DNA from: Saururus chinensis
Lineage: Eukaryota > Streptophyta > Magnoliopsida > Piperales > Saururaceae
Length of the DNA: 64,000 bases
Direction of reading: 5' to 3'
Assembly: GCA_035235625.1 (NCBI GenBank)
Contig: CP141143.1
Location: 6,678,501 to 6,742,500 of the forward strand
The position numbers and the translations under genes were made by a program. The notes under the pieces were generated by a model. The model ran no database searches. It saw nothing but the letters and a program-made list of their open reading frames with translations, and had not been told where the DNA came from. The first letter of the stretch is position 1. Each line of letters begins with the position of its first letter. Positions 2,151-60,100 of this stretch are shown in pieces.

Positions 2151-4588
2151 CGATATATATATAAATAATATAATAAAAAATTATCTATATATATCACAAA
2201 TATTATTATTTTAAAATACCCATCTCACTTCTCTCTCTTTTCTCTCCCTCCGCACTCATTCTTTCTCGTCCGCTCCTACTACATGTGATATCACTCATTG
2301 TTAAATATATAACATGCATTTAATATACCATGTATATTATTATAAAATTATAAGTTTAAATTCCCGTACCATGTCGTCTACATGAGTTCGATGGTGGGGT
2401 ACATAATGACGGCGACATCAGCATCAAGGACGAACTTGGCAGACCGGGGGCTGCCCCAGAGTGAAAAAAAAGTGGACTGTAGCCCAGGCAGAATGAGTTA
2501 ACGATTTTTTGTGGCCAGTCAAGAGCCTCCCAACGGACGACGGTGTACAAGGGGGCTTCCAGGAGCAGAGAAGTCCAAGAGGAGGCCTGAAAGACCTGAA
2601 GGGCACCGGGGACAATCATCCGACTGTGGAAAGCTTACAACCGACTATTAGAAGTCATAACGACTACAAACAGAGGTCAATGACAAAAGGGGATAAGGAA
2701 TTGGGTGTGGATAAGGGAGTGTAGAGGAGGAGGAGGGTGGTGGCGGCCGGATCGGCCTCTGGACATCACACAAGCATGTTGCCTCAGCTAGATTTGAAGA
2801 AAAGAAGAGTTTGGTGGAAGAACAATAAGAGGGCATGGGGCGGGTTGCCCGGGTCAGTAACGGGGCGGAGAAGAGGTGGCTAGATAGAGGCGTCGGTTCG
2901 GCCCTCCATTGTCTGGATCGTGCAGAGGAAGAAAAAGGTAGAGGGGCGAATGTGCAAAGGGAAGGTAGAAGCGTAGAAGGGGCAAAGCAAGATAGTGCCA
3001 GCAGGAGAGGGGGGGGGATCGCGGCTCACCTCGGCTGAAAATCGACTGGTGGCCCATTTTGGTTCTTTTTTTAATAAAGTTTTTTAAAAGCCCTCCCTAC
3101 GTTTGATACATCTAAATTTCGCACCGAAACTGCCTTTTTTCGTGCCAAGGCCTCATATTTTACGCCGATACCCTTTTTTCGCACTAAGTCCCTCTTTTAT
3201 CTACTTAAACCCCCTTTTACGTGTTGAACCTTTCGCCATTAATTAAGCCCTACACACAACTTTAGGTACACAAATTCCAAGATCAAGCGAGGATAATTAT
3301 ATAAATTTCATCCTACAAAAATATATAGATTATTAAAGTCCTCTTGAGCGGGAGGACCTCATTCTTTTCCCATCGACAAAGTCAAAAATTCCTACGCGTA
3401 TGCTAGTACCCTATTTTAATCCTTCATTGCCCCTTACCCTTAGTACAACTTTGCCCTTGAATTAATTAATACAATATTACAATCCTCTTCAGCTGAAGGT
3501 CCTTATTTTTTTCTTACCTAAAAAGCCATCTTGTCAAAAATCCCTTCTCACCAACTAGTGCCCCTTTTTGCCAATTTCTTACTCTATTCTTTTAAATAAA
3601 AAACTTACTTCTTATAACTAGATAGAGAAAGTAAGTAATACCGAACAATATCAAACTTTACTTTTTCTAATCCATTTACATGTTTTGAATACGTTTTTAG
3701 TATTAAAAAATAGAGTTAAAATATCAACTTCTTATTTAAACCCTTGATTACCATTTACCCTTAGCACAACTTTGTCCTTGACTAATTAATACTTCTTTTA
3801 TTCTAAATTAATATTTTTATTTAAAATTTTTTATTTTATATTAATAATTTTTTTCTTTTTTTAAAATAAAATTTAACTATTAAATAAAAAATAAAATATA
3901 TTTTTTTAATATAATTATTAATATAAAATAGAGAAAGGACAATAGACTTACTATAAAAAAAAGCTAATCAGCGGTCATCAGAGGGCGGGGAAGGACTTAC
4001 AACTAACTCGAGCACTAAATTTTTAATCAAAAAAATATTTTATAAACGGTATGATCTGACCAATGCATACGTCGAGGGCCAACGTTATAAACTTTAGTTT
4101 TCAAGTTTCTTTCACACCTCTTCTTTGGTGATGTGATACCGTCCAGTTGTTAGTCGAGCTTGTGGGTCATGAAAATTTGTCCTTTTTCCACTCTTCCGTC
4201 TTATCATCTTCGGAGCAAGTATTTGACGGAACAAAGCGACTTATTCCTCACGTCGGTTCACTGAACCTGCAGCAAGCAACTTTTTGTGCAGTAGGCACCT
4301 GCACCTCTAGGCTGCATTTACTACCCCATCACTACGGCATCCAACTGACCCCGGGTATCAATACGTGCTGCTCCAGTGGTCAACCACCATTCTGTCATCT
4401 TGTATCTCGAGGTGGCAGGAGATCCTCATTATGCGAAAAAAAATCTAAGAACGCGTTTATCTGTACGTTAGTTTTTTTTTACTACACCGTTTTCACTTTT
4501 CAGCTACTGCCTTAGTCAAAAATAATTGTTACCGCTTATTTTTTTAACTCTAGCAAATGTTGCATCTCCGCTTGTTGCAGCAAGCGTA
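2151..4588. other. Intergenic, no supported gene
   Basis: AT-rich sequence interrupted by a GC-rich purine-biased block (about 2390-3060) and a stretch of short homopyrimidine phrases (3060-3560). An open frame of 122 codons at 4147-4515 shows no family motif, no splice context and a low-complexity tail, so it is not called. I see no RNA gene or defined transposon ends. Confidence 0.4.
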
Positions 4589-6270: not shown

Positions 6271-6489
6271 GGTCGTTCGTAGTGTGCAGTCCTCAACCCA
6301 AGATACGAATAAGCAGGGCCAGCCATGGGTTCTGAACACAAGCATCATGTCCTCATCTTCCCCTTCATGGCCAAGGGTCACTTAATCCCCTTGCTCGACC
6401 TGTCCAAGACCTTATGCAACAGAGGCCTGAAAGTAAGCATCATCACGACCCCATCCAATTCCCCTTTCATCCTCGACTCTATCTCCGGC

Positions 6490-6498
6490 CACCCAAAC
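6490..6498 (+). repeat. Left target-site duplication of the Mutator-like element
   Basis: CACCCAAAC at 6490-6498 recurs at 13817-13825 on the other side of the insertion. It encodes His-Pro-Asn of the glycosyltransferase, and joining the flanks restores SGHPNVHTLV in frame. A 9-bp duplication is diagnostic of Mutator-superfamily insertion. A tenth base (C before each copy) also matches. Confidence 0.9.
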
Positions 6499-6602
6499 CG
6501 CTTCGGATCGGCTGTGCAACACTCCCACCCGGGTGGGTGGGAGTGCCCAATAAAAAGTAGCCACGTCCTCTTTCTCTCATAATGTTAGTAAACCGGGTTT
6601 CT
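6499..6602 (+). repeat. Left terminal inverted repeat of the Mutator-like element
   Basis: Pairs with 13709-13816. The first 69 bases are strongly similar to the reverse complement of the right end. Bases 6519-6544 form a self-complementary hairpin, CACTCCCACCC facing GGGTGGGAGTG, which the right terminus also carries in a variant form. Confidence 0.8.
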
Positions 6603-6927
6603 ATACAGTTTTTGTTTAAACCAAAATGAAGAAATTTTGGTTTTCATTCTAACCCGTGGGTCTCTCCAGGGCTCCCCTCCTAATCTTCCTCCCCTAAATC
6701 GCCACCAAAATCCTCCTTCCCCCGGAGGAGGTGCTCTCATGCCACCATCGCCTGGGATAGATTCCACCTCTGCAATCTACAGTCTGCCGGAAGACTCGGA
6801 TCTCCTATCCATAGCCCCCCCTAATCGCTGGAGCTAGAGGAGGTGTCGGTGGTGGCTCTGACGCGTGCCCAAGAGAATAGTCCTCTTCCTCTCCTAAATC
6901 CCCATCTATGGCCCTTCTCTTCCCCTC

Positions 6928-8561
<1,634 letters not shown>

Positions 8562-8817
8562 TTTGGAGCAATATTGTATCAATATTGGAGCAATATTGCT
8601 ACAACGTTGGAGCAATATTGCTCCAACCTGAAAACAATATTGCTCCAGCGTTGGAGCAATATTGCTCCACTGTTGGTTGGAGCAAAATTGCAAAACTGTT
8701 GGTTGGAGCAATATTGTTCCAGTGTTGGAGCAACACTGTTGGAGAGCAATATTGCTCCACTGTTGGTTGGAGCAATATTGCTCCAGTGTTGGAGCAACAC
8801 TGTTGGAGCAATATTTC
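8562..8817. repeat. Palindromic AATATT minisatellite, array 1
   Basis: Irregular tandem array whose core is the perfect 16-bp palindrome GGAGCAATATTGCTCC, often extended to TTGGAGCAATATTGCTCCAA. Copies are spaced by short linkers such as cgttggag and ctgttggttggag. Being palindromic, it gives the same peptide motif (EQYCSN / GAILLQ) in several frames on both strands, which explains the overlapping open frames here. It is not a coding region. Array 2 (9804-10555) is the same family. Confidence 0.9.
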
Positions 8818-9803
8818 ACTCTTCAGTCTTTAAAGAACATTGTTAATACTTCTAACTTATGCAGTTCACCATTCCCAGTGGGAGGCATGCTATGTACCAT
8901 GTAGACCTCTTACAAAAGGCAGGAGTTACGCGTATCCTACGAGTTGCTGTTGCGGCAACAACAACTCCTATTGAAGGCAAAATATTTGCAAGGATAGTAC
9001 TTAGATACCTTGAGCACCAACAGATAGAACACCCAATCTAACATATGATGGAGAGGGTGCTCTGAACTCGATCATGCAATATTGGTGTGACATTCAATTT
9101 TGGTCTTGGCTTTTACTCCATCTATGCAGCTGCCAAGTACGCTGATCCCAATCTTTGAGCTTGGTCTTGGAAGCTGAAGTTCTAAATTTGTCTGGTTAGG
9201 AAATTAAGGTGGTTTTGGTTTGTTATAGTGATCAAATGAGATAATATTATTTTTATTTATATTGGATTGTAATTCTCGATGTATAAGTGCACAGGGCGAG
9301 TAACTGTTGAGGCAAGGACCAACAATTGTTCTGTTTGAGTCTTTTAGATCTGCTTGTATTCGTTGCCACATTGTGTGCTATTATCATGAATTGCTGATTT
9401 ATTTATATGTGATTAGCGATATAACTTTGTATCATGTTTTTGTCTAGGATGATTCTCTTTTTTCTTTCTTGGTTTCATGAATGTTTTGTGCTTCATGGTT
9501 ACAAAACTCTTGGATTGTTCCGTTCTGAAAAACTTATGGTCCTCATGGGGGATGTTGTCTAGGATATCCTTCATCAATGGGAATTGTGAATCATAAGAAA
9601 TTGACAGTGTATGTGTTAGCGCACATTAGCATAAATGATTGATAGCTCCTAATTGGTAGGACAAAAAATGCTTTCAATCCCAATATTGAGGGATGATCAT
9701 CTTTTGATTTGCTCAATTGAACCAAAGCTAGTCCTTTATGCTGATAAGATTTTGAAATGCGCCACCTTGCAATGAGCCCATAATGACCCCCCTATACTTT
9801 CAG
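8818..9803 (+). other. Non-repeat spacer between arrays, with a possible exon at 8863-9042
   Basis: Bases 8863-9042 follow a cag acceptor-like site and stay open to a TAA, reading FTIPSGRHAMYHVDLLQKAG and onward for about 60 codons with balanced composition. This could be a terminal exon captured from another gene, with 9043-9600 resembling its 3' untranslated region. I do not recognise the family. No other feature is seen up to 9803. Confidence 0.35.
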
Positions 9804-10555
9804 GTTGGAGCAATATTGCTCCAACAGTGTTGCAATATTGCTCCGAGGTTGGAGCAATATTGCTCCAACCAACAATTTTGCAATTTTGCTCCAACCAATA
9901 GTGGAGCAATATTGCTCCAACAGTGTAGCAATATTACTCCAACCTTAGAGCAATATTGTTTTCAGGTTGGAGCAATATTGCTATAAGGTTAGAGCAATAT
10001 TATTCGAACCTTGCAACAATATTGCTCCAAGACTTATATAAATTAAAGGCATCAAAATCATCGAACATTTCAGGTTCGAGTAATATTGCTCCAAGGTTGG
10101 AGCAATATTGCTCCAAGTTTGTCGCAATATTACTACATCTGCATAGTAATAATATTGCAAAGTTATAATAACATTAGAGCAATATTGCTGCAACGTTGGA
10201 TCAATATTGCTCTAACATTGGAGTAATATTGCTGTAATATTAGAGCGATATTACTGCAAGGTTAGAACAATATTATTCCAAACACCATGTTGATGAAATA
10301 TTACACCTTTAGTATAATAATATTGATGGAAGGTTGTAATAATAATACTCCAATAGTGTAGTAATATTGCTACAAGATTGGAGTAATATTGCTCCAACGT
10401 TAGAGCAATATTGCTCCAATGTTAGAGCAATATTGCTCCAATAGTAGCAATATTATTTCTACATGATTGGAGCAATATTGCTAAAATTATATAGCAATAT
10501 GGCTACAACCTTAGAGTAATATTGCCCTAACTCTGTAGCAATATTATTCAACCTA
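9804..10555. repeat. Palindromic AATATT minisatellite, array 2
   Basis: Longer and more diverged array of the 8562-8817 family. By eye it contains roughly 28 AATATT cores, most flanked by gagCAATATTGctc arms. It begins with clean copies (9804-9990) and becomes degenerate towards the right, with linkers such as ttagagc, gtagtaat and ggttg. Unit length is irregular (about 15-40 bp), which separates it from a regular satellite. Open frames on both strands are by-products of the repeat. Confidence 0.9.
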
Positions 10556-10602
10556 ACATCAAGTTTGGAAAATTAATAATAGTCAACGATACTTGCATCT
10601 AG

Positions 10603-10893
10603 CATATTTTTACAATTTTAATTGTTAAATTCATTGCATATTTTTACAATTTTAATTGTTAAATTCATTGCAATAAAATGGCAGTTCCTCGACATTTAAT
10701 CCGCTTGCAAATATTTTATCTCAAGGGTACTGTCAATTACACTCCCAAAACCTACACTTAGGCCCAATACTTATGACAAATATTTACAGTTAATTGTGAA
10801 ATTCAGCGCAATAAAATGACTGGTATATTTCATGTTCCTCAGCATTTAATCTACTTCTTATGTGCTATCCAAAGGGTTCTGTCAATGATACTC
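10603..10893. repeat. Nested duplications after the palindromic array
   Basis: A 34-35-bp unit (catatttttacaattttaa through ttcattg) is present twice in tandem at 10603-10671. A larger, diverged duplication of about 110 bp then relates 10640-10752 to 10784-10893: both contain caataaaatg, gttcctc(g/a)(a/g)catttaatc and gg(g/t)tctgtcaat-like phrases. No coding potential. Confidence 0.65.
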
Positions 10894-11202
10894 TCTGTGT
10901 ATGCAGACCTGCAATTAAACCAATATACTAGGGAAACTAAATATGACCCGTTGCTTAAAAATGAATGCTAGCTTCTACAGCAATATAGTCCGAGAATTCA
11001 TCAGAAGGCACAAAATGAAGAAAGCTTTATGGAATGATAACATCGTTATATTTCTTACATTGGACACTAAATGTGGTGCTTGAATATTAAGCCTCCATAC
11101 TTAGTTTTGTTTACAATTACAATCTTCAAGCAGGGAGCTAACTTTGAATCTGGAGTATGCAGCGTCTCCAAGCCATTGCCATTAGCTGATGATGACCTTG
11201 AG
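10894..11202. other. Element interior, nothing recognised
   Basis: No open frame or repeat of note. It could be the 3' untranslated region of the minus-strand fragment that ends at 11203. Confidence 0.3.
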
Positions 11203-11329
11203 CTACATGCGAATTAGCAAAATCTGGCGGGAACCAGCAACTATTACACCTGGATCATTTATCTCACTCTTGTATTCCATAAATTTGGCAGCATCTTCTA
11301 CCCAAACAACACAATGATGCCCATGTGGA
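11203..11329 (-). pseudogene. Exon-like terminal fragment of an unidentified gene, minus strand
   Basis: Read on the minus strand, a ttgcag acceptor is followed by 42 sense codons, PHGHHCVVWVEDAAKFMEYK then SEINDPGVIVAGSRQILLIRM, and a TAG stop at 11203. Length, composition and acceptor placement look like a real last exon. I do not recognise the protein. Other pieces with the same strand sense lie at about 11565-11640 (after a cag, VLTLVRNTSSHMIAYVEASVTV) and 13080-13270, so a captured minus-strand gene may run through the right half of the Mutator-like element. The joins between these pieces are not established. Confidence 0.45.
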
Positions 11330-13079
11330 CTGCAAATTTATATCAAACAAATGGCATTCAGGATACAATACAAATAATCATTATACAAAGATATACGGTC
11401 TCTTAGATTATCTTTTGGAAAACCTTTTTAATAATTCCACTTTACCGGTCAATTAGCCGAATACTATTCTTCAAACGAGCAAGCAACTTGGTCGATCAGA
11501 ACCAGCCTTGTCATGCCTCTGGCTCTCTGTAAGATACCCTTCTGCCTGCAAAATTCTCAAAATACCCTTCTGACAGTGACCGATGCTTCCACATAAGCAA
11601 TCATATGGGAGCTGGTGTTCCTAACAAGTGTCAATACCTGAGTTGGAAGGTTATACATTTTGGCTAATTCTTTGAAAAGAAAAACGGTTATTCCACTTGT
11701 TGCATAACGATGGTTTGCATTGTGCTTTATTACAATACCCTTTGCAACTGTGGCCGGTGGTGCTCTTCGTATTTATCCATATAGTTTGGATGGACACCAT
11801 GAGCCATGTCTGCAGAAACTGTTAGATAGAGTTTTATGGTTTAAGAACAAGAAATATACTAAGCCTACAGGATGTTATCCACAGGATAGTCCATGGTCTG
11901 GGCATCAAATTGATCACAAATATAATTTAAAAATGCAGGCCCCACATATCAAAGATTATGCATAAGCCCGAGGGGTTCGTCCTGGGGATTGAATAAAGTG
12001 TAGAATTACTTTTAAGAACAAAGTCATAGCTTATTTATTTCTGTTAAATAAACATTAAATCTGTCAATGAATATCAGCTCACAAGTAAAAGCACTATTAT
12101 GTTCAACTGTTATTCTGACAACAAGGTAGCAGATACTTTGCCACAGCTCCATTAATAAAATGTATTTTTACCATAACATTTCACGTGTTCAACACATGAC
12201 ACTCACCTTAGACTAGTAAAAATAGTATTAAATCATGCTTGGTAATGACTGCATTTATACCTATTCACTTGAATCTTTTTTAAAATTAGTCGCCTATTCA
12301 CTAACCTATGAACGTATTATCCAAAGGAAACTTACAAGTAAGTTACTTTGAGCATCAAAATGAATGCAAGTAAATACGTAGAATGCAGATTTGCAGTAAA
12401 AAAAAAGATAATGTTCTAGTGCTTCCAAAATCATTCTTTAATTGGATATGAACTTGAACTGCTGATATAATTTAGTAACCTAGAATCACGTGTTGTTGAT
12501 TGAAAATGGGTCCAAAGTAAGCTAGGTAATGGGCATATCATATTGCTCCCCAAAAATTCATTACTGCAGAGTATTGTGAATTGAGCATATTAAAATGATA
12601 TAGCTATGTATTAAACAACCAACATCCTTAAAAAGATAATGTAAACAGCCAATCACATAGCAGCTAGTAAAAAACAAGCTATAAAAAATAAAGTAAAAGC
12701 CAATAATTGATAGAAAATAAAGTAAAATAAGTGTGAAAGTATAGTACTTTCAAAGAAGGTGAGCTGTAAACTTCTGCAAATGGCCAACTTGAGCATCAAC
12801 CAATACTTCTTCAACCAAAAGAGCCTTTTTTTGTTCCAAATCACAAATTTCTCATGGCAAGCAAAATATTTTTATTCACTGCTACTTGATTCCCTCTCAC
12901 CATCATAAGATAATAATCATAAACCCATTCATCTTTCTTCTTACAATGAAACAACCTATTCTACTAACTCAAAATTAGTAAATCAACAAATAAACAATGC
13001 AGGGAGATAAAGTGATTTAATACAAAAGCATATGAGTATGGAATACCCAAAAATCAGCGTCGTACACTTTGGATTCACT
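11330..13079. other. Element interior with unassigned open frame at 11720-11965
   Basis: An 81-codon plus-strand frame at 11720-11965 ([20 protein letters not shown] onward) has non-biased composition but no recognised family and no clear splice sites. The rest is AT-rich and intron-like. If the minus-strand fragments belong to one gene, this region would hold its introns. Confidence 0.3.
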
Positions 13080-13270
13080 GTGAAGCACCTCGCAGGCGAG
13101 CTCCGGTGATTAGGGCGTTGTAAAAGGGGGATTCCTTCAGGCGGCGGAGGAGGAACCTCCTATTCGTCTCTCCCGAGGGCAGTGGCGTGAATAACCTGTT
13201 GAGGGCGATTAGGGCAGTGGAGCTCAGAAGTACAAGGGCTGCGGAAGAAATGGAACCCGATCCGGGTTGA
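13080..13270 (-). pseudogene. Exon-like fragment of an unidentified gene, minus strand
   Basis: On the minus strand this GC-rich block reads SSAALVLLSSTALIALNRLF, a hydrophobic anchor-like stretch, then TPLPSGETNRRFLLRRLKES and PFYNALITGARLR. A GAG/GTGCTT donor-like junction follows, or a stop shortly after. It looks like the first coding exon of a gene for a small membrane-anchored protein, possibly the one ending at 11203. The family is not recognised. A diverged copy of part of it lies at 13535-13650. Confidence 0.4.
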
Positions 13271-13650
13271 AGATCTCTCTGGATGACGGAACAGAGCAGC
13301 TTCCTTGAGCATTCTGTCTTATCTTTTCATCTCAACCCTCTCAGGCATCAGAGGAAGAAAGAAGGAACCGAGGAGAGACATTTGTGAATCGGCCATCTTT
13401 TTTGGTTTTGCCTTCGCTGCACCTTCACCGTGCCTTCTACTCAGCTGGGCTGAAATCAATCCGACCCCATCGATGACAAGACCACCTTCCACTGCTGGGT
13501 CACGGCGGTCTCCGACAGGAGCAAGCCTCTACGTCCGGAGGCGGGGGCGGAGGAACCTCCCTCTAGGGCGCAACAGCATGAGAGAGGGTTGTGGGCGATT
13601 AGGGTAGTGGAGCTCCAGAGGAAAACGATTAGGGCTGCGATAGAAACAGG
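13130..13650. repeat. Diverged direct duplication near the right end of the Mutator-like element
   Basis: Bases 13130-13245 and 13535-13650 are related direct copies. Both carry gg(a/c)ggaggaacctcc, then (t)gggcgattaggg(c/t)agtggagctc, then (a)gggctgcg. The copy nearer the terminus lacks the open frame seen at 13080-13270. This could be partial TIR growth, a second acquisition of the same fragment, or a gene-internal duplication. Confidence 0.65.
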
Positions 13651-13708
13651 GCGAGTGATATGGGTTAAAGAAGTCTGCCCGAAGTTAAACCAGGATTGTA
13701 TTTTAGAT

Positions 13709-13816
13709 TAGAGGAAAGCCCGGCTCAACTATACTAACCCCATGAGTGACGTAGCCGTGTCTTATTGGACACTCTCACCCATTCTGGTGAGAGTGCTCCA
13801 CAGCCGATCCGAAGCC
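13709..13816 (-). repeat. Right terminal inverted repeat of the Mutator-like element
   Basis: Inverted partner of 6499-6602. It carries CACTCTCACCC facing GGTGAGAGTG, a hairpin like that at the left end, and ends CCGAAGCC directly before the CACCCAAAC target duplication at 13817-13825. Confidence 0.8.
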
Positions 13817-14298
13817 CACCCAAACGTACACACACTGGTGCTCGAGTTCCCAAAAGTTGATGGCCTCCCTGCAGGCTGCGAGAGCACCGAATGTCTCCCA
13901 TCCATGGACCTCTACTTCACGTTTCTTCTCGCCACAAAGCAACTCCGCCAGACGTTCCAGAAGTTGCTGCAAAGCCTTTCCAACCATCAGGACCTCCCCA
14001 TCTGTGTCATCTCAGATTTCTTCTTTGGTTGGACGCTGGAGGTGTGCCGGGAACTTCATGTCCCCAGTTTGGTGTTCCACGGCATGGGTGGCGACATGCA
14101 AGTATCTTTGTCTCCATGCACCACACAAGCGTGTCAATTCCGGCGCTGGTGAAACCTTCACCGTGCTGGGGATCCCCCTGCAGCTGACCCTAGAGGACTT
14201 GCCAGACGCAATAAAAGTCTGGGATGATCCTTGCGACCCCTTCTGCCAATTCCTGATGGAGGCAGTAGAAGGAGATGTGAACAGTTGGGGGGTGCTGG

Positions 14299-14437: not shown

Positions 14438-15187
14438 GTGCTGGTAAACAGCTTCACAGGGCTAGAAGCCGACTTTGTGGCTCCCTTGGAGTCGTTCTAT
14501 GAAGGAGAAGCCAAGGCATGGTGTGTTGGGCCACTCTGCTTGTACAACCATGAGGTGGAGAAATCAGACACAAAGACGTCGTCTCAGATGTGCATCAAAT
14601 GGTTAGATCAACACACAAAGGGAGCCCGGTCTGTCATCTATGCTTCATTCGGCACGCAGGTGCAATTGTCGCAGGCGCAGCTCGACGAAATTGGGCTCGG
14701 GCTGGAAATGTCAGGCCATCAGTTCGTGTGGGTGGTGAGGTCGGATGGTTGGGAGCCCCCGGAGGGACTGGAGGAGAGGCTGGTGAACGGGAGGGGCCTT
14801 ATAGTGAAGGGTTGGATCGATCAGCGAGCCATCCTAGCCCACGAGGCCACGGGCGGATTCCTCAGCCACTGTGGATGGAACTCAGTGCTGGAGAGCTTGT
14901 CAGCCGGGGTCCCACTGCTGGCCTGGCCTATGATAGCCGAGCAGACCTTGAATGCAAAGCTGGTGGTGGAGCTGCTCAAGGCCGGAGAGAGGATCCCCAA
15001 CGGCGGCGATGGAGCTGTGGTGGGCCGTGAAATCATCTGCAAGAAGATTAGGGACTTGATGGGAGGAGACAGAGGGAAGGTGGCTCAAGAACTCAGTCGT
15101 CTGGCCAAGCAGGCGGTGCATGACGGTGGTGCTTCCGACGCCTGTCTCACTCGTCTCATAGACGAGCTGGTTGCACCCGCAATGTAG

Positions 15188-19078: not shown

Positions 19079-19717
19079 TTACGCCGCGGCGGCACCGCTA
19101 CCACCGTCGCTATCATCCACAGCTTTGCGCTCCTCGCTAACGCCGGAGCGGCAGACCGGGCAAGCCGGCGCTCTGGACAGCCACCTATCGACGCACTGTG
19201 CGTGGAACACGTGACTGCAGCGGGGGAGGATTCGGCATCTCTCCCCGTCTCCGAACGCCTCCAGACAGACGGGGCAGTCCGTGGGATCCACGCTGGCGGA
19301 ATCGTCCGCGGCGAAGTCGAAGGCGGGAAGCTGCTGGAGGTCCTTCTGGGACAGCCCTGGGGCCATTGAGGGGAAAAAGAGAGACTCGGGGCCAGCGCGG
19401 AGGTGGTGAGACGCGGAGTGGCGGCGGCGACGGCGGAGGGCTCGGCCGGCGATGCAGATGTGGACGAGGACGAGGGCGGCGATGGCTACGAAGAGGAAGA
19501 AGAGGGAGATGGCGAGGGCCATCACGGAGGCCTGTAGGAGGAAGGAGAGGAGCCTGCTGTTGGGCTTGGCCGAGGGAGGCATCGGGATCGGGGACGGGCG
19601 GGCGGCGAGAGGAGGAGTGAGGTGGGGCGGACTCGAAGAGGCGGAAAACGGGTCATAGTCGAGACGACGGAAGCGGAATTCGTGGTTGTCATCCCGCTGC
19701 GGGGTGGAAACGGGCAT
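19079..19717 (-). CDS. ATL-type RING-H2 E3 ubiquitin ligase, 212 aa
   Basis: Single-exon, intact membrane-anchored ubiquitin ligase of the ATL family, which passes ubiquitin from E2 enzymes to substrates, often in defence or stress signalling. Residues 1-55 are a Pro/Ser-rich N-terminus. One transmembrane segment spans about 63-90, followed by a basic RRRRR stretch marking the cytosolic side. PGLSQKDLQQLP (about 120-131) is the GLD-like motif of the family. The RING-H2 ligands are C148, C151, C167, H169, H172, C175, C186 and C189, with the conserved Pro after the second-last block and W179 for E2 contact. A short acidic/Ala tail follows. The gene is GC-rich unlike its flanks. Length is normal. 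The ATL subtype cannot be assigned from sequence alone. Confidence 0.93.
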   Translation of the reverse strand: MPVSTPQRDDNHEFRFRRLDYDPFSASSSPPHLTPPLAARPSPIPMPPSAKPNSRLLSFLLQASVMALAISLFFLFVAIAALVLVHICIAGRALRRRRRHSASHHLRAGPESLFFPSMAPGLSQKDLQQLPAFDFAADDSASVDPTDCPVCLEAFGDGERCRILPRCSHVFHAQCVDRWLSRAPACPVCRSGVSEERKAVDDSDGGSGAAAA

Positions 19718-45620: not shown

Positions 45621-46994
45621 TTAAACAAGGGGCGTGGAAGTTGAATGAACCACCCTCTTCTGTCCCCACAGTAACCAATGCAAAGACATCCTCCCATACA
45701 GAGGCGGGTTTGTTTGAAGGTGCACGCTGTTGGATCGATTAGCTTCAGCATCCCGATGGCCATGATTCAGCCATCCTTCAATAACAGCTTCCGAGCAAAT
45801 CCTCCTGCTCGCATTAGCGCTACACTTCGATGCATCAGCTTCCATCATGCTGAACGGCCATTTCACAGACACGGATCGCTTCATCGAATCGCCTGTTGAA
45901 GCGTTCTCCTTCCCTCGAAGCCAGATTTTGGAAATTGAATAGCTCTCTCTTGTAACTGTCCCGATTTTAGCACAAGCACCACTGCTATTGTCCAAATTGA
46001 TCTCCTCCAATCCATTCATCCCTCTGATTGAAAGGCAGCCACATTCCGACATAGCTGGCCGATGTCCCGGTGTGATAGGAAGAGCAGTCTTTTTGTTCAC
46101 CTGTTTCTTGTTTGATGGTCTAATGGCTACTTGTAACAAAGAGCTGTTGTCAAAAACATATTCATAAGAACCCATTGACAAACATCTTCTTGCGTCCACA
46201 TTGCTGCTACTACTGGATCCTTCAGCTCTTGCCACACCATCAACATTCTTGAACTTCCCAAGCTTTACCGATACTACTTTGATTTCTGCATTGCCGGGGC
46301 TCATGTCCTTTTTCGCTGCGGTTTCGCTTGATTTTTGAGAAACTTCAGTAGGTGAACTTCCCAATTCTTCTTCTCCAAGAACATCTAATTGGGTAGAGCT
46401 AGCAACAGCCGCTTCTCTATCCGTCACAAGCTCTCTGGAGCTCTCACTGCCTGATTCCAGTACAAGTACAAGTGGGGAGGAATTGTTGTTTGGAGAGCAG
46501 TCAGGAAGCAAGCTCCCTCTGCAGAGAGGGCAGGTAGAATGTGACAAAAGCCATGTGTCTATACACTCAAGGTGGAAGGCGTGGCTGCATCTAGGAAGTA
46601 ACCTAAGCTTGTCATCTGGCTCAAACTCACAAAGACAAACCGCACAATCAAATGGGTTTTTGAGTCCGATAATGGCTTTGTAGAGGAAAACAGGAAGGGT
46701 GTCTATGAAGGACTTGTCGACCCCAGAGTCATGGAGATGGAACAACTGTTGCAACTGCCCCTGTAAATCAGTCACATTGCCTACGTCCTCTGCTTCTCTG
46801 GTAGGTGATCTAAGTAGACATTTAACAAGGAGGTGGAGCAAACCTGATACGAAGAAGATAACTGCTAGAATTATAATAATAAGCAAAATACTGGGGTTGA
46901 TCTTGCTATCTACATTGGAATCGGATAATGGCACTGGAGGTGGAGGAGCAAAATATAGTGTCGGTGGATTGGTTGCTAGAAGAGTTCGAAGCAT
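45621..46994 (-). CDS. ATL-type RING-H2 E3 ubiquitin ligase, 457 aa
   Basis: Single-exon intact member of the larger ATL subgroup (ATL13/ATL46/ATL47-like), a membrane ubiquitin ligase. Residues 1-33 are a short Pro-rich lumenal/extracellular part, 34-58 a transmembrane segment (INPSILLIIIILAVIFFVSG). A linker and the GLD-like motif (GVDKSFIDTLPVF, 91-103) follow. The RING-H2 ligands are C117, C120, C136, H138, H141, C144, C155 and C158, with W148 for E2 binding. The sequence GLKNPFDCAVCLCEFE is typical of this subgroup. The long Ser-rich C-terminal half (160-457) contains DARRCLSMGSYEYV and RSVSVKWPFSM, short blocks conserved in these ATLs. Length fits the subgroup. Which numbered ATL it matches needs a database search. 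Confidence 0.93.
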   Translation of the reverse strand: MLRTLLATNPPTLYFAPPPPVPLSDSNVDSKINPSILLIIIILAVIFFVSGLLHLLVKCLLRSPTREAEDVGNVTDLQGQLQQLFHLHDSGVDKSFIDTLPVFLYKAIIGLKNPFDCAVCLCEFEPDDKLRLLPRCSHAFHLECIDTWLLSHSTCPLCRGSLLPDCSPNNNSSPLVLVLESGSESSRELVTDREAAVASSTQLDVLGEEELGSSPTEVSQKSSETAAKKDMSPGNAEIKVVSVKLGKFKNVDGVARAEGSSSSSNVDARRCLSMGSYEYVFDNSSLLQVAIRPSNKKQVNKKTALPITPGHRPAMSECGCLSIRGMNGLEEINLDNSSGACAKIGTVTRESYSISKIWLRGKENASTGDSMKRSVSVKWPFSMMEADASKCSANASRRICSEAVIEGWLNHGHRDAEANRSNSVHLQTNPPLYGRMSLHWLLWGQKRVVHSTSTPLV

Positions 46995-54104: not shown

Positions 54105-57100
54105 ATGGGGCTCATCGGCGTGATGGGCTGGTCAATTGGCTGCTCGGCCACTGGGGAGCGCCTGGTGTCCGCGGCCAGGGACGGGGACCTTGAAGAAGCA
54201 AAGGCACTTTTGGAGTACAATCCTCACTTGGCTCGCTACTCTCCGTTCGGTGTTCGCAATTCTCCGCTCCACTACTCTGCAGTACATGGCCACTATGAGG
54301 TGAGTCTTACTTTCTGCCATGGCTTTTCCTTCAGTCTTTTTGTTATAGCGACAAATGTGAATACAAATTCAGCATTTTGAATGGGTTCTTGTTCCCTGAC
54401 TACAGATAGTTAATCTGTTGCTCGAGTGTGGTGTTGACATCAATGTCAGGAATAATCGTGGGCAGGTGATGTTAGTTGCGAGGCTGCTTTCTGCTGGGTC
54501 TTTTGTTTTTGGTCTTGTACAAACCAGAGAATTGTGATAATATGTGATTTTGCCAAACACAGACTGCTCTGATGTTAGCCTGCCAGTTTGGTCACTGGGA
54601 AACAGTTCAGACTCTCGTGATTTTTGGGGCAAACGTAAGACCTTCTGCTGTATTCTTCTCTTGTTTTTTATTTTTTTATCTTATCCGAACCTCTTTGCAA
54701 ATTAATCATGTAATTCAACCAAACTGATATTCGATGTCATTATCATTGATATTTGTTAATTGGGCTTTAGATCCACAAAGCAGACAAGCTCAATGGTGGT
54801 ACGGCTCTTCACTTTGCAGCAATTAATGGGCACTCTCGTTGCATACGCCTTCTGCTTGCTGATTATGTGCCTAGTATACAAAATATCGTAAATATTATAA
54901 GCAAGAGAGCAGGTCAAGAGGAATCGATCACGGGATTTGACAAGGGGTATATCATCTACTGCCCCCAGCATTTTCACAGTTCATATATATCTGGCCTAAA
55001 TCGCACTTGTATACTTGTTTTATCATAGGGCTCTGATGCGCACCATCAATAAAGCAGCTGATGGAGGCATCACTGCACTCCATATGGCGGCACTAAATGG
55101 GCACATTGAGAGTACTTTATTACTTTTGGATCTGGGAGCTTCGGTTTACTCTGTTACAGTCGATGATGGCAGCATAATTGATCTAATTGGTATTAAGTTC
55201 TTTATTCTGCTTTTTTTCTCTTTTAATGGTCATGGAACTATGATTGTTTATGTAGAGAGTATGCAATTTTTATGCTTTTGTTATACTCCTGGATCGATTA
55301 TGATTGTTCAAGGACAAGGTATGCCAACTTCATATAGGGATTTAACAACAGAACCTACAATTTAGAGACTTTTCTCTTTAATGGAGGTTTTCATTGAATT
55401 GTAGAAAAATTTATTGTGGAGTAATTAGCCATACAATTATAATCTTGACCAAGTCAAGTGTGGCGTTTAATTTTGTAATTCTCGAATACTACCAATAAAA
55501 ATAGTGATTGATGTCTCTATTGACTAGCATGTTTTTTTTCATATCAATTTGATGTTCCTTGGCAGGTGCAGGCAGCACACCCCTTCATTATGCCGCTTGT
55601 GGTGGAAATGCACAGTGCTGTCAAGTATGGTGCCTCAGTTTGTCTTACGAATAAATCATCTATTTTCATAACTTATCATAACCAATTCTGATTGATATGC
55701 GTGCATGTGAATAATAGCTTCTTATTGCCAGGGGTGCTCGTTTGACTGCCAAAAATGCAAATGGGTACGTTTATATTATACTCATTTAGATCTTAGATAC
55801 TCAAGTAATAATCTATTATTTTGAATTTTTTTATATACATAGAATGCCAAATAGGCTAAGTGGAAGCAATTGCTAGTTATAAAGTTCTCATGAGGAGCCC
55901 CAGTTTTATATTCTACTCATTTAGATCTTAGATAGTCAAGTAATAATCTATTATTTTGATTTTTTTTTAATATATGTATGGAATGTCAAATAGGCTAAGT
56001 GGAAGCAATTTCTAGTTATAAAGTTATCATGAGGAGCCCCAGTTCTGTAGTCACTTATGTATGCCGACCTAGAATTTTCTCATAGAACTTGTCGAAAGAG
56101 TCTTCTTTTTCTTTCAAATTAAGTGTTACAGAATTGAGAGAATTTTTAAAGGCTTGAGTAGAAAGGTTCTTTTTCTTAAAGAAATTTTTTTACTTGGTAA
56201 GTTGCTTACACGTAGTTATTGCCAACTGTTTGTGCTTTATTAGCGTTATTCACTGTAATGTACAGTTGGACTCCAGCAATTGTTGCTCGTTCATGGCATC
56301 GACATTGGCTTGAGGGAATCTTGAGTAAGCGACAAGCAGGTCTGCCGCGGCTTCTTCCTTCCCCATATCTCTCTCTGCCACTCATGAGTATTGTCAAAAT
56401 TGCAAGGTGAATTGCTCTCTCTCTAACCGCACATTATAAACGAATAAACTGAGCATTGGTTGGTTTTACATGATGATGCAGAAGTATTACAGTCATGGTT
56501 TGCAGTCTCAGATCTCGGTCTCGTCTCGGTACCCTAAAGAGATGAGATCTCGAAGAGATCTCGGAGATATCATGTAAAACAATTACAAGTGTTCAGGTCA
56601 TTGTAAAAAAATAGTTAACATATTTTTTGATGTGGGTATATGTTATTATTGACAAATATTAAACAATTGTAAACTTATGAGAATATAATAAAAATTATGT
56701 AGAGTAAGGAAAAATTATAATATTTATTGATGATGCAAAATGAGACAATAGAAATATTGTTTATGTAGAAAAATTAAAACCTATTTAGCTATAAGATCTA
56801 AGAATAAGTAAACCCAATGACATAAGACTAAGAATTAATTTAAGTAGAGCATTTAATAAAATACTAATTTTTCCTCTGTTTCACAATTTCCTATCCTTTA
56901 CGACTGTTGGATTGCTTAATCGGTCGTGACCCGTGATTGAAATCCTATGTAGCATGAGTAAACTCATCTTCCTCAATGAAAGCCAAAGGAGTCATGTTAA
57001 ATCCTTTATTTTGATTGGCTTCATTCCCTTTGAGAGTGTGTTTGCTACTATCATTTTCATCATAATCTCTTCCACAACTATTGTCTCCATCATCTGTAGC

Positions 57101-60100
57101 ACTATCATCATCAGACACTGGATCATCTACATGCATGTGAGATCCCTTGGTTATAGAAGATGATACAATTTCTTCTCTAAACCTTTTAACATCAATTCTA
57201 ACTTCTTTTGCTGCATCAGCAATCAAGGGATCAAGTTGTTTATCATCATGATCCATAGAGTCTGTTACTACCCACTCAGCATAAGGATTCTCTCTCTTAT
57301 CTAAATTTGCTTTAGCCACTAATTCAAAGTGGCCTAAGGGGTCATCCTCTTGTTTGTCACAATTTTTATAATTGTCTTCTATATCCTTTATCATCAACTT
57401 CATATTATAATGACAAAAGACCAATTTCTTCAACTTATTGTAGGACAATATATTCTTAGGCTTCGTGTGAATGAGGGCAAATGTGCTCAAATTTCTCTCA
57501 CATGGAGATGCAGATGCAGTTTGTGACAGTATACAAATAGCCAACTTGCTTAACGTAGGGCAATCAATCTCATACAATGACCATCATTCCCCTGAAAAAT
57601 AAAGAGAACAAAGTAATATCTTCATAGAGATGTATTAATCAATATATGGGTAAATTTTTTTATCTTCATGTTTAAGTTACTTGCCCACATTGTTTTTTTT
57701 TATTGAACGACACTTCTACTTCCAAATGTGCCACGTGCATCCCTAAACCTGACAATCTTTATATAAGTTGTTGTATGTCAATGATATTATATAAGAAAAT
57801 AAAGGATAAATTGTGTCTAATTAATATTTAGGTAATTACCTCACTGCCTATATTGCCTGCATCATCTAACATTGAAAACAACTTATCAAATACGTCATGC
57901 ACTGCCTTAATTAAATATGGTATGTGCCCAAGCTTTTTACTATGATAGTACTTAGGATTGAGGTAGTACGCTACATAAAAAATTGCATAATAATTAAGAT
58001 AAGTAACATATTTCCTAAAAGGAATAATTGTTAGAGAAGCTTACCGGCCTTGTAGATGGGTTCATCCATTGATCTTACCCACCTCTTATTAATAATTTTA
58101 TTAACCCATACATAAGACCTTGGAGATGAGATTTCAATGGCCATCTTCATCCTATCAATAGCCTCATAAACAGATCCCATCGTTGGAAATTTTTCAGTGT
58201 CCATGACTCGTAGATCCCATCGTTGGCTCCATGATCGCAATTGAATCCCTTACTTCTTCCCAAAATTTGTTATCAAGCACAATTTTCTCCACATCTGTAG
58301 CACATGAATGACTTTAAAGGTTAGAATCTAGCCACTGTTAACTTAAGAAGAATGATTGCAGTGCGTTCTTCTCCCTTTGCAAGCTCTCTAGTGCAATGAA
58401 GTTTGTTGCGAACCGTGTTGCCCCTGGACGAACTAAATCCCGACCACAAGCTTGTCGTATATGGTGAATAAGTTTGTCAAGGTTATATATAAATCTTGTC
58501 ACCATTCTTCCCTTTTTAACAGCATTTTCCACAAAGCCATATTTTGTGACTTCTTCAAACATGAGGTCTATACAATGAGCTGCACAAGGTGTCCAATATA
58601 ATGCATACCTCTGCATTAACATCTTGCCAGCTTTCTTATAATTGCTAGCATTGTCTGTGACAATCTGAACTACATTCTTTTTTCCAATTCTCTTAATTTG
58701 TTCTTCAATTAAGTTCATGATGTAGTAAGCATTCTTTTCCTTTCCCGAAGCATCAACTGAGTCTAAAAAATAAATTCTTCGGTTGCTATAAACCATGAAA
58801 TTGTTGATTGACATTTTTGTCGACCCCATCCATCCATCACACAAAATGGAGCATCCATATTCATTCCAAATAGGTTCCATATCCTTAATCCTCTTGTCTA
58901 TGTCTTTAACCTCTTTGTCTAAATATGTTCCCAATATATCTTTAGCAGTGGGAATACATACTTCTTTTCCAAGTGCTTGTGCTTCAGATATCATGTTTAG
59001 TAAATGAGGATCATATGCAACATGAGTAGGAATATAGTTAAAGATAAAAAAACTTAGAAATCATCCTACCAAGTCTTTCTCTCAAACCAGGTGAGACTAT
59101 ATCTGTAATGGTTTGTTGGTTTGACACACCAACTTTTCTCCTCTTTGCATGTGCTCCACTACTAGAACCACCTATGCCAGTTGATACAACCCTAGCTGCT
59201 TCAGGCTCATCCTCATCTGATGTGTCAATTTGAACCTCTGATTCATACCCAAGACGACCAATTTTTGCATGCATCTTTTCTTTTTTGTCTCTTGAATCAA
59301 GCATTTTTTTTCTTATTTTCCTCCTTGAGGCCTTTCAGTTCATTTTGCACATTCTTAGGACACTTTTTGCACCTTGCAACATCTTTACCACATATCAAAT
59401 GATCCTTCAATCTTGTCACTCCCCCAGCCTTCATAATTTTATCACAATAATTACATCTTGACCCCCTAACGCCCACTAGCATTCCATGCTCCCAACCCTT
59501 ATCTGTTGTCATAATTTTTGCATAAAACATACATAAAAATAATAAGCTATCTGCAAAAAAAATTATACTTGACATCCTCATCTAATAAAGTAATCAACAC
59601 CAAAGTTAGATAAGAGGTTCACATTTCATAAAATTAGTCTAAAAGCAAAAATGATGAATAAAGGAATAAAATATGGCAATTTAAATACTGAATACCTCAC
59701 AAGAAGAGTATGCACATAAAATAAGAAAATGAACTTTGCTTGTGGAGAAGCTATAGCATCCTAGAAAAAAAAATGCTAAAGCTTAAAATAGTCAGAGCAA
59801 TAAAGCTCTATCAAGTGTTAGATAATATCAACTTTGGCTGATCATTATTCCATCTTCACATACATAATTTCACATTTCAGAAAATTAGTCACCAATATTT
59901 GATACAAGGAAAAATGAATTTTTACCCATATAGACAATTTTCTGCAATCTGTGGAATATTCATGCTCCTGCCGCTCTCATCAAACTCTGGTAGCATCCTA
60001 GCAGAACTCAGGTAGCAACAACTTGTAACAAGATCTGGCCAAGTGAAGACAAAGGCTTTTTTGTTTAAAAAAATGGCCCTATCTAAAATAGCATGTTTAC

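Follow-up and report, generated by a model that had tools for sequence, protein, structure and literature searches.

VANC proteins of the Arabidopsis VANDAL elements, a group of Mutator-like elements (MULEs), bind short motifs and remove silencing, and the bound motifs form tandem repeats in the non-coding DNA of the elements (PMC5735166, PMC10398659). Ulp1 domains are present in some VANC-type genes (KIU, PMC13317346). Here, an arrangement of comparable layout is described in the flowering plant Saururus chinensis, in a stretch of 64,000 nucleotides (assembly GCA_035235625.1, contig CP141143.1, positions 6,678,501 to 6,742,500; hereafter the window), in which a 7.3-kb MULE (6499–13816) contains two arrays of a palindromic unit. 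Such arrays regularly occur in a large MULE family with long terminal inverted repeats (TIRs) and were observed in every member read. With a probability of somewhat less than one half (about 0.46), they may constitute arrays of binding sites for a regulator encoded by the family, similar to the targets of VANC and in many cases located at promoters within the TIRs.

The likeness to VANDAL elements includes tandem motif repeats in the non-coding element DNA as well as fast changes in copy number. However, VANDAL elements are non-TIR MULEs, whereas the TIRs of the present family reach 1.5 kb, and the VANDAL motifs (YAGTATTAY; AGTTGTCC/AGTTGTAC) differ from the 20-bp palindrome in a 22-bp register found here; the string 'palindrom' is absent from the main text of the report on VANDAL motifs (PMC5735166). 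The family is also set apart by a TATA-bearing module embedded in many of its arrays; it is VANDAL-like in layout, yet it is not a VANDAL. The Ulp1-domain gene carried by ULP1-containing (Kaonashi-like) MULEs is found within the element here too.

Outside the MULEs, sites arranged in arrays are a feature of the subterminal repeats of Spm/En, which belongs to the CACTA superfamily and has 12-bp sites. Its TnpA is an element-encoded protein that activates the element (TnpA is mentioned in PMC10398659). In MULEs of Aedes aegypti such as Muta1 and Muta5, long TIRs are accompanied by tandem repeats in a subterminal position, which holds for 10 of 12 long-TIR families; derivatives vary in repeat number, and the duplication is 8–9 bp long (PMC5225508). 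The Aedes repeats are 9–15 bp long and lie next to the terminus, whereas here 22-bp palindromic units lie within or abut the TIRs; neither palindromic units nor an inner promoter module are mentioned in the excerpt of PMC5225508. MuDR has two convergent genes with promoters in the TIRs, and the present family resembles it in this respect, although a ULP1-like gene takes the second place here; multi-TIR plant MULEs share the tandem TIRs seen in element E1 (see below). Palindrome arrays go unmentioned for these elements in the excerpt of PMC3310237. A literature search for short strings of the unit and the TIR returned nothing related, which does not show absence from print.

Palindromic arrays in a 22-bp register

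The two arrays announced in an earlier note on this DNA are real (Table 1). The 16-mer GGAGCAATATTGCTCC has 26 matches in the window at up to three mismatches, compared with 0.27 expected, including seven exact ones, and all 26 are confined to 8565–8820 and 9807–10484. AATATT cores number 10 in array 1 (261 bp as cut) and 28 in array 2 (753 bp), the latter as the note had estimated. The position inside a transposon also stands, as it is bounded by TIRs and by the 9-bp duplication CACCCAAAC.

Two other points of that note have to be revised. The spacing had been called irregular and unlike that of a normal minisatellite; 28 of 40 intervals are exactly 22 bp (6/11 in array 1 and 22/29 in array 2), the others ranging from 14 to 64 bp, and 22 bp is the commonest spacing in each of 25 other arrays (20 transposon-type loci and five contig ends). 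The interval lists also contain spacings of 26 and 29 bp, which are off helical phase. Every unit had further been described as its own reverse complement, whereas only seven contain the perfect 16-mer, and the mean deviation from a perfect palindrome is 3.1–3.2 positions per unit (units being called at up to 7/20 mismatches). The arrays are therefore a minisatellite with a palindromic unit, in a regular 22-bp register with interruptions. The best match between array 1 and array 2 is inverted (133 bp, 85 %), which carries little meaning because the units are palindromic.

A family of long-TIR elements

The host genome that was searched comprises 516,460,831 bases in 11 contigs. The exact 16-mer occurs at 765 places and its reversed control at none. 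This count was the genome-wide check proposed in the earlier note. Among the first 50 of these places, all on contig C1, 30 lie in six loci with family TIR ends (E1–E4, L021 and L027), while a block with which the contig begins accounts for 19 and L022 for one. At L022, arrays of a shifted palindrome (TGTAGC...GCTACA or GCTGCA) occupy 16–388 and 3161–4140, and no family TIR was found there.

Four whole elements on C1, picked through their arrays, measure 17.6 kb (E1), 8.8 kb (E2), 14.7 kb (E3) and 14.4 kb (E4). As in the window element (E0), the terminus is GCTTCGGATCGGCTGTG and the duplications are 9 bp long, and their inverted repeats of 0.8–1.5 kb (91–98 % identity) contain arrays within or at the inner end, in addition to central arrays. 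As a test of ascertainment, three elements were picked through a TIR search alone, and all three carry arrays (L036, 3.6 kb with six units; L037, 4.6 kb with 39; L038, 5.2 kb with 29). Across these seven elements the TIRs span 0.18–1.5 kb, with arrays in or abutting them in each case. The 9-bp target-site duplication, read by eye, is exact in E0, E1–E4 and L037, and 8/9 in L036. The 17-base terminus occurs at 119 places (control 0), and pairing of the 100 listed places yields 32 plus/minus pairs, 2.0–27.2 kb apart, nine of them at 19.6–22.5 kb.

Some members have additional features. E1 (L018 and L019) has a tandem TIR, as in multi-TIR MULEs, in which 667–1315 is repeated at 1775–2425 with 96 % identity. 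Receptor-kinase-like fragments are present in E3 (L023, 6728–6955, Pfam match) and in E1 (L019, 3000–3326, by eye).

The TATA-bearing module and the family genes

Array 2 of the window element includes a 29-bp module, CTTATATAAATTAAAGGCATCAAAATCAT, for which the genome holds 263 places at up to two mismatches (control 0). All counts of module neighbourhoods given here rest on 100 of these 263, referred to as listed modules. The module is located inside TIR-type arrays or at their outer margin. Whole copies in E0–E4, L021 and L027 number 17 as counted by eye with shorter partial repeats excluded; 15 have 0–2 mismatches and two have four. The stretch TATATAAA within it resembles a TATA box, and the module is likely a promoter. 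None of the 75 listed arrays has modules on both strands, and 16 of 17 pairs of neighbouring arrays are in minus/plus order, the modules reading outward towards the nearer element end (the remaining pair is plus/plus). For 34 of the 68 arrays on C1–C10, an exact TIR end lies within 6 kb on the side pointed to, among the termini listed. A listed module lies inside 16 of the 32 terminus pairs; three of the other 16 were examined, and one has an array and two a 24-base repeat pattern.

The fullest copy read is E1, in which a MULE transposase gene converges with a ULP1-like gene. The exon pieces of the former match the MULE domain PF10551 (E 4.3e-22) and SWIM (1.9e-4), and a piece of the latter matches PF02902 above the cut-off (E 4.7e-5). 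DUF1985, the VANC domain, was not found in the exon pieces scanned, and no VANC gene was identified among them. The right array of E1 ends approximately 80–110 bp ahead of the first Met codons in the transposase frame, which are candidate starts.

A 262-amino-acid transposase piece has 148 matches in the genome, merged to 138 loci, of which 49 are at or above 58 % identity and 89 below. A listed module occurs within 30 kb at 30 of the 49 closer loci and at none of the 89 more distant ones. In 12 of the 49 it lies 1.33–3.71 kb upstream (11 within 2.01 kb), always on the opposite strand; in 15 it lies past the 3′ side of the gene, at 4–21 kb and on the same strand; and in three it is 5.5–20 kb upstream on the opposite strand. 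The ULP1 search returned 127 matches, merged to 119 loci, which were split at 77 % identity into 40 at or above and 79 below. At 21 of the 40, a listed module is situated 1.15–5.85 kb upstream (18 within 3.07–3.45 kb), again always on the opposite strand, while four have one elsewhere and 15 none listed; below 77 % the number is 2/79. ULP1 converges on the transposase at 34 of the 49 closer transposase loci, 13 are without ULP1 within 30 kb and two have another arrangement. The modules upstream of both kinds of locus indicate that in many copies each TIR array precedes a gene, as in the layout of MuDR. Nine of the transposase loci at or above 58 % have frames of 648–863 codons, uninterrupted by a stop within the match.

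At 21 of the 89 distant transposase loci, a converging ULP1-like match is present within 30 kb and no listed module was found; such sister families may carry different arrays.

Conservation of the unit

Among 298 transposon units, 65 pairs of positions are changed on both sides, compared with 65.8 expected, and complementary double changes amount to 40, compared with 38.1 (sd 5.4) by chance. In 897 units of a related contig-end satellite, described below, the corresponding values are 99 and 116.0. A constraint to maintain a hairpin was considered for the unit and is not supported by these paired changes, which are no more frequent than chance. The profile of conservation is mirror-symmetric, with rho of 0.79 for the transposon arrays, 0.75 for one array alone and 0.88 for the satellite, although inversions inside arrays would likewise equalize the two halves. 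The ATAT core varies less than six other A/T positions (0.028, compared with 0.146), and this holds in all 20 arrays of at least eight units. Mirror-symmetric conservation, a nearly fixed ATAT and the lack of excess covariation point to the pattern of a two-fold symmetric protein site, and would be expected of sites for a dimeric protein rather than of a maintained hairpin.

The contig-end satellite

Long blocks near contig ends that enclose TTTAGGG runs are a feature shared with the subtelomeric satellites of plants. In S. chinensis, a 22-bp relative of the transposon unit fills the initial 20 kb of C1 and parts of the initial 10 kb of C2, C4 and C5, near GGAGCGATATTGCTCCACTAAT in C1, C2 and C4, and no satellite was found in the corresponding 10 kb of C3 and C6–C9. 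A 24-mer of the satellite has 204 exact places (control 0). Among the first 100 of these, 96 are no more than approximately 180 kb away from a contig end: C1 has 24 at its start, C2 has one at its start and 63 in its last 97 kb, and C3 has eight in its last 176 kb. The other four lie at 33.1 Mb of C3. The satellite spans up to approximately 97 kb near contig ends, which are possibly not true chromosome ends. The C1 block encloses a run of TTTAGGG, and further runs are found at the borders of the C4 blocks. At the C4 start, a 2.8-kb sequence within the satellite (L030, 1007–3880) is bounded by TTTAGGG and CCCTAAA runs, and in L016 the satellite flips orientation inside the array at about 700 and 2580 (by eye).

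This satellite differs from other subtelomeric ones in its 22-bp unit, which is nearly palindromic and has a relative in a transposon array; a literature search for a 22-bp palindromic subtelomeric repeat returned only a general satellite review, which does not show absence from print. Its consensus agrees with that of the transposon unit at 17 of 22 positions (by eye) and has the same period, and its linker, ACTAAT, differs. The interpretation of the two as one entity was dropped, as the module is unmatched in the satellite stretches L016, L017, L030 and L031. The single module match in L028 (up to 9/29 mismatches) falls in A/T-rich sequence that is not part of the satellite.

Weighing the interpretations

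In E1, the order of parts is an outer TIR, an array with the TATA module, the transposase gene, the converging ULP1-like gene and a mirror-image array with its TIR. Each unit may be a binding site for a dimeric protein of the family, either the transposase or the ULP1-type protein. Dense occupancy of an array would recruit the protein to the promoter and thereby sustain transcription of the copy and protect it from silencing, and the bound protein could possibly also pair the element ends for transposition, while unequal exchange or slippage would hold the number of sites high. Of the three ideas in the earlier note (a protein-binding array, a transposition enhancer and a self-spreading palindrome), the first fits best, given the mirror-symmetric conservation without covariation and the recurrent placement upstream of two genes. 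A transposition enhancer is a possible reading. Self-spreading is a weak account of the transposon class, where distant transposase loci are free of listed modules, and a possible one of the contig-end blocks.

Several observations weigh against a role of the arrays as binding sites. The module is absent from L036, L037 and L038 at up to 6/29 mismatches, as it is from central arrays, and its designation as a promoter was made from sequence alone; TATATAAA reads away from the genes, though TATATAAG on the opposite strand fits too. Of the 68 arrays compared with TIR ends, three have one on the wrong side only and 31 have none listed. The FAR1 piece of E1 (1.3e-4) falls below the Pfam cut-off (23.0 versus 28.1 bits). 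The conservation profile is partly mutational, as seen in an excess of C>T/G>A changes and in faster change at G/C (0.20 versus 0.09), and the 20 arrays compared are not independent, since units and some arrays are mutual copies (the two TIR arrays of E1 are 99.7 % identical). Finally, the central array regions of E3 and E4, taken with 200 bp on each side, are only 96.7 % identical, compared with 98.6–98.8 % in the long flanks, and the array thus shows no better conservation than its surroundings. The three TIR-picked elements without a module and the FAR1 score make binding sites somewhat less likely and a passive repeat slightly more so. According to the latter explanation, slippage or unequal exchange amplified a 22-bp palindromic unit in an ancestral element, and the resulting array has since been carried without a function of its own. 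The indels that separate the central arrays of E3 and E4 (10, 22, 22, 53, 67 and 174 bp, several at or near multiples of 22) are consistent with such a history, as are the imperfect units, the mutation-like spectrum, the three elements with arrays and no module, and the satellite relative, in which the stretches read are also without it. On the other hand, arrays are retained in all three TIR-picked elements, even that of 3.6 kb, the core is restrained beyond its base class in 20/20 arrays, and module-bearing arrays are placed recurrently. Purely passive carriage is judged unlikely overall, yet it is a serious contender.

The arrays also appear to act as break points, which is kept as a rival explanation or as a second role. 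Repair after excision would turn in the array and copy one end of the element onto the other, generating long TIRs; such a turn is conceivable because pairing of each unit is possible in both orientations. In E2, E3 and E4 the array marks the limit of TIR homology, the arrays of L037 and L038 abut the inner end of one TIR, and in L036 the left 1.43 kb recurs in inverted form as the right TIR, with 3-bp microhomology at its junction with the array. The TIR of E1, however, extends approximately 285 bp beyond the array, L037 and L038 have no array at the other TIR end, only a single clear junction was read, and TIR-type arrays look inherited together with the TIR, so that the boundary may have arisen by descent; as the main function of the arrays, this is improbable. 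The family could instead have acquired the chromosome-end satellite, which concerns the origin of the arrays and is compatible with the other explanations. The shared period, the agreement of the consensus and the abundance near contig ends speak for it, but the satellite stretches read have no module and a different linker, and descent may equally have run from transposon to satellite. Capture is rated quite improbable. Least probable of all is that folded array transcripts feed silencing of the family as a source of small RNA. The cruciforms or hairpins proposed in the earlier note are physically possible, the RNA of array 2 folding at −324.8 kcal/mol, compared with an average of −166.1 over 20 shuffles (z −24.8), but any palindrome array folds, and paired changes stay at chance level in both classes of unit.

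The window element and its surroundings

The window element with its duplications (6490–13825) interrupts a UDP-glycosyltransferase coding sequence, which matches PF00201 in the frame 14438–15187, the 5′ part lying in the frame 6313–6582 (by eye). Its two TIRs are 79 % identical over 68 bp (54/68 counted from base 6500). The left one includes the palindrome CACTCCCACCCGGGTGGGTGGGAGTG (6520–6545), variants of which were seen in E1–E4 and L036. The captured prolyl-tRNA synthetase fragment matched no Pfam family at a useful score. By eye, no MULE transposase frame is present among the open frames of the element, which is a non-autonomous copy of the family.

Table 1. Coordinates of the window element, its arrays and other parts
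Feature	Position in window	Strand	Remarks
Target-site duplication, left copy	6490..6498	.	CACCCAAAC, 9 bp
Left TIR	6499..6567	+	
Captured prolyl-tRNA synthetase fragment	7205..7507	+	stretches 7205–7357 and 7448–7507; E 7.7e-17 to PDB 1h4q
Array 1	8563..8822	.	12 palindromic units, TTGGAGCAATATTGCTCCAA; adjoins sequence flanking the E2 central array
Spacer	8840..9623	.	92 % match in E2 and L021, beside arrays there too
Array 2	9805..10552	.	~29 palindromic units, TTGGAGCAATATTGCTCCAA; holds the TATA module
Module inside array 2	10033..10061	+	CTTATATAAATTAAAGGCATCAAAATCAT, 29 bp; 263 genome places
Right TIR	13748..13816	-	
Target-site duplication, right copy	13817..13825	.	CACCCAAAC, 9 bp

Elsewhere in the window, open frames on the minus strand at 56945–58994 with a hAT dimerisation region and DUF659 are likely a hAT transposase remnant, and two RING-H2 zinc-finger open frames lie on the same strand (19079–19717 and 45621–46994).

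Significance

If the arrays are binding sites, the family would represent the equivalent of the VANDAL/VANC anti-silencing system among MULEs that bear TIRs. A more far-reaching proposal is that of a second, independent anti-silencing system, in which a TIR-bearing transposase/ULP1 MULE family employs its own dimeric protein on palindromic promoter arrays and in which the site has also filled chromosome-end satellites, so that subtelomeres could be covered by a protein of transposon origin with effects on the chromosome ends of the host; this is offered as a speculation with little probability at present. The nine transposase loci with uninterrupted frames provide candidate binding proteins that are already at hand, while the embedded module offers an exact point at which promoter use may be tested. 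Furthermore, the link to the contig ends makes the origin of a satellite from a transposon, or the reverse, testable with a single repeat.
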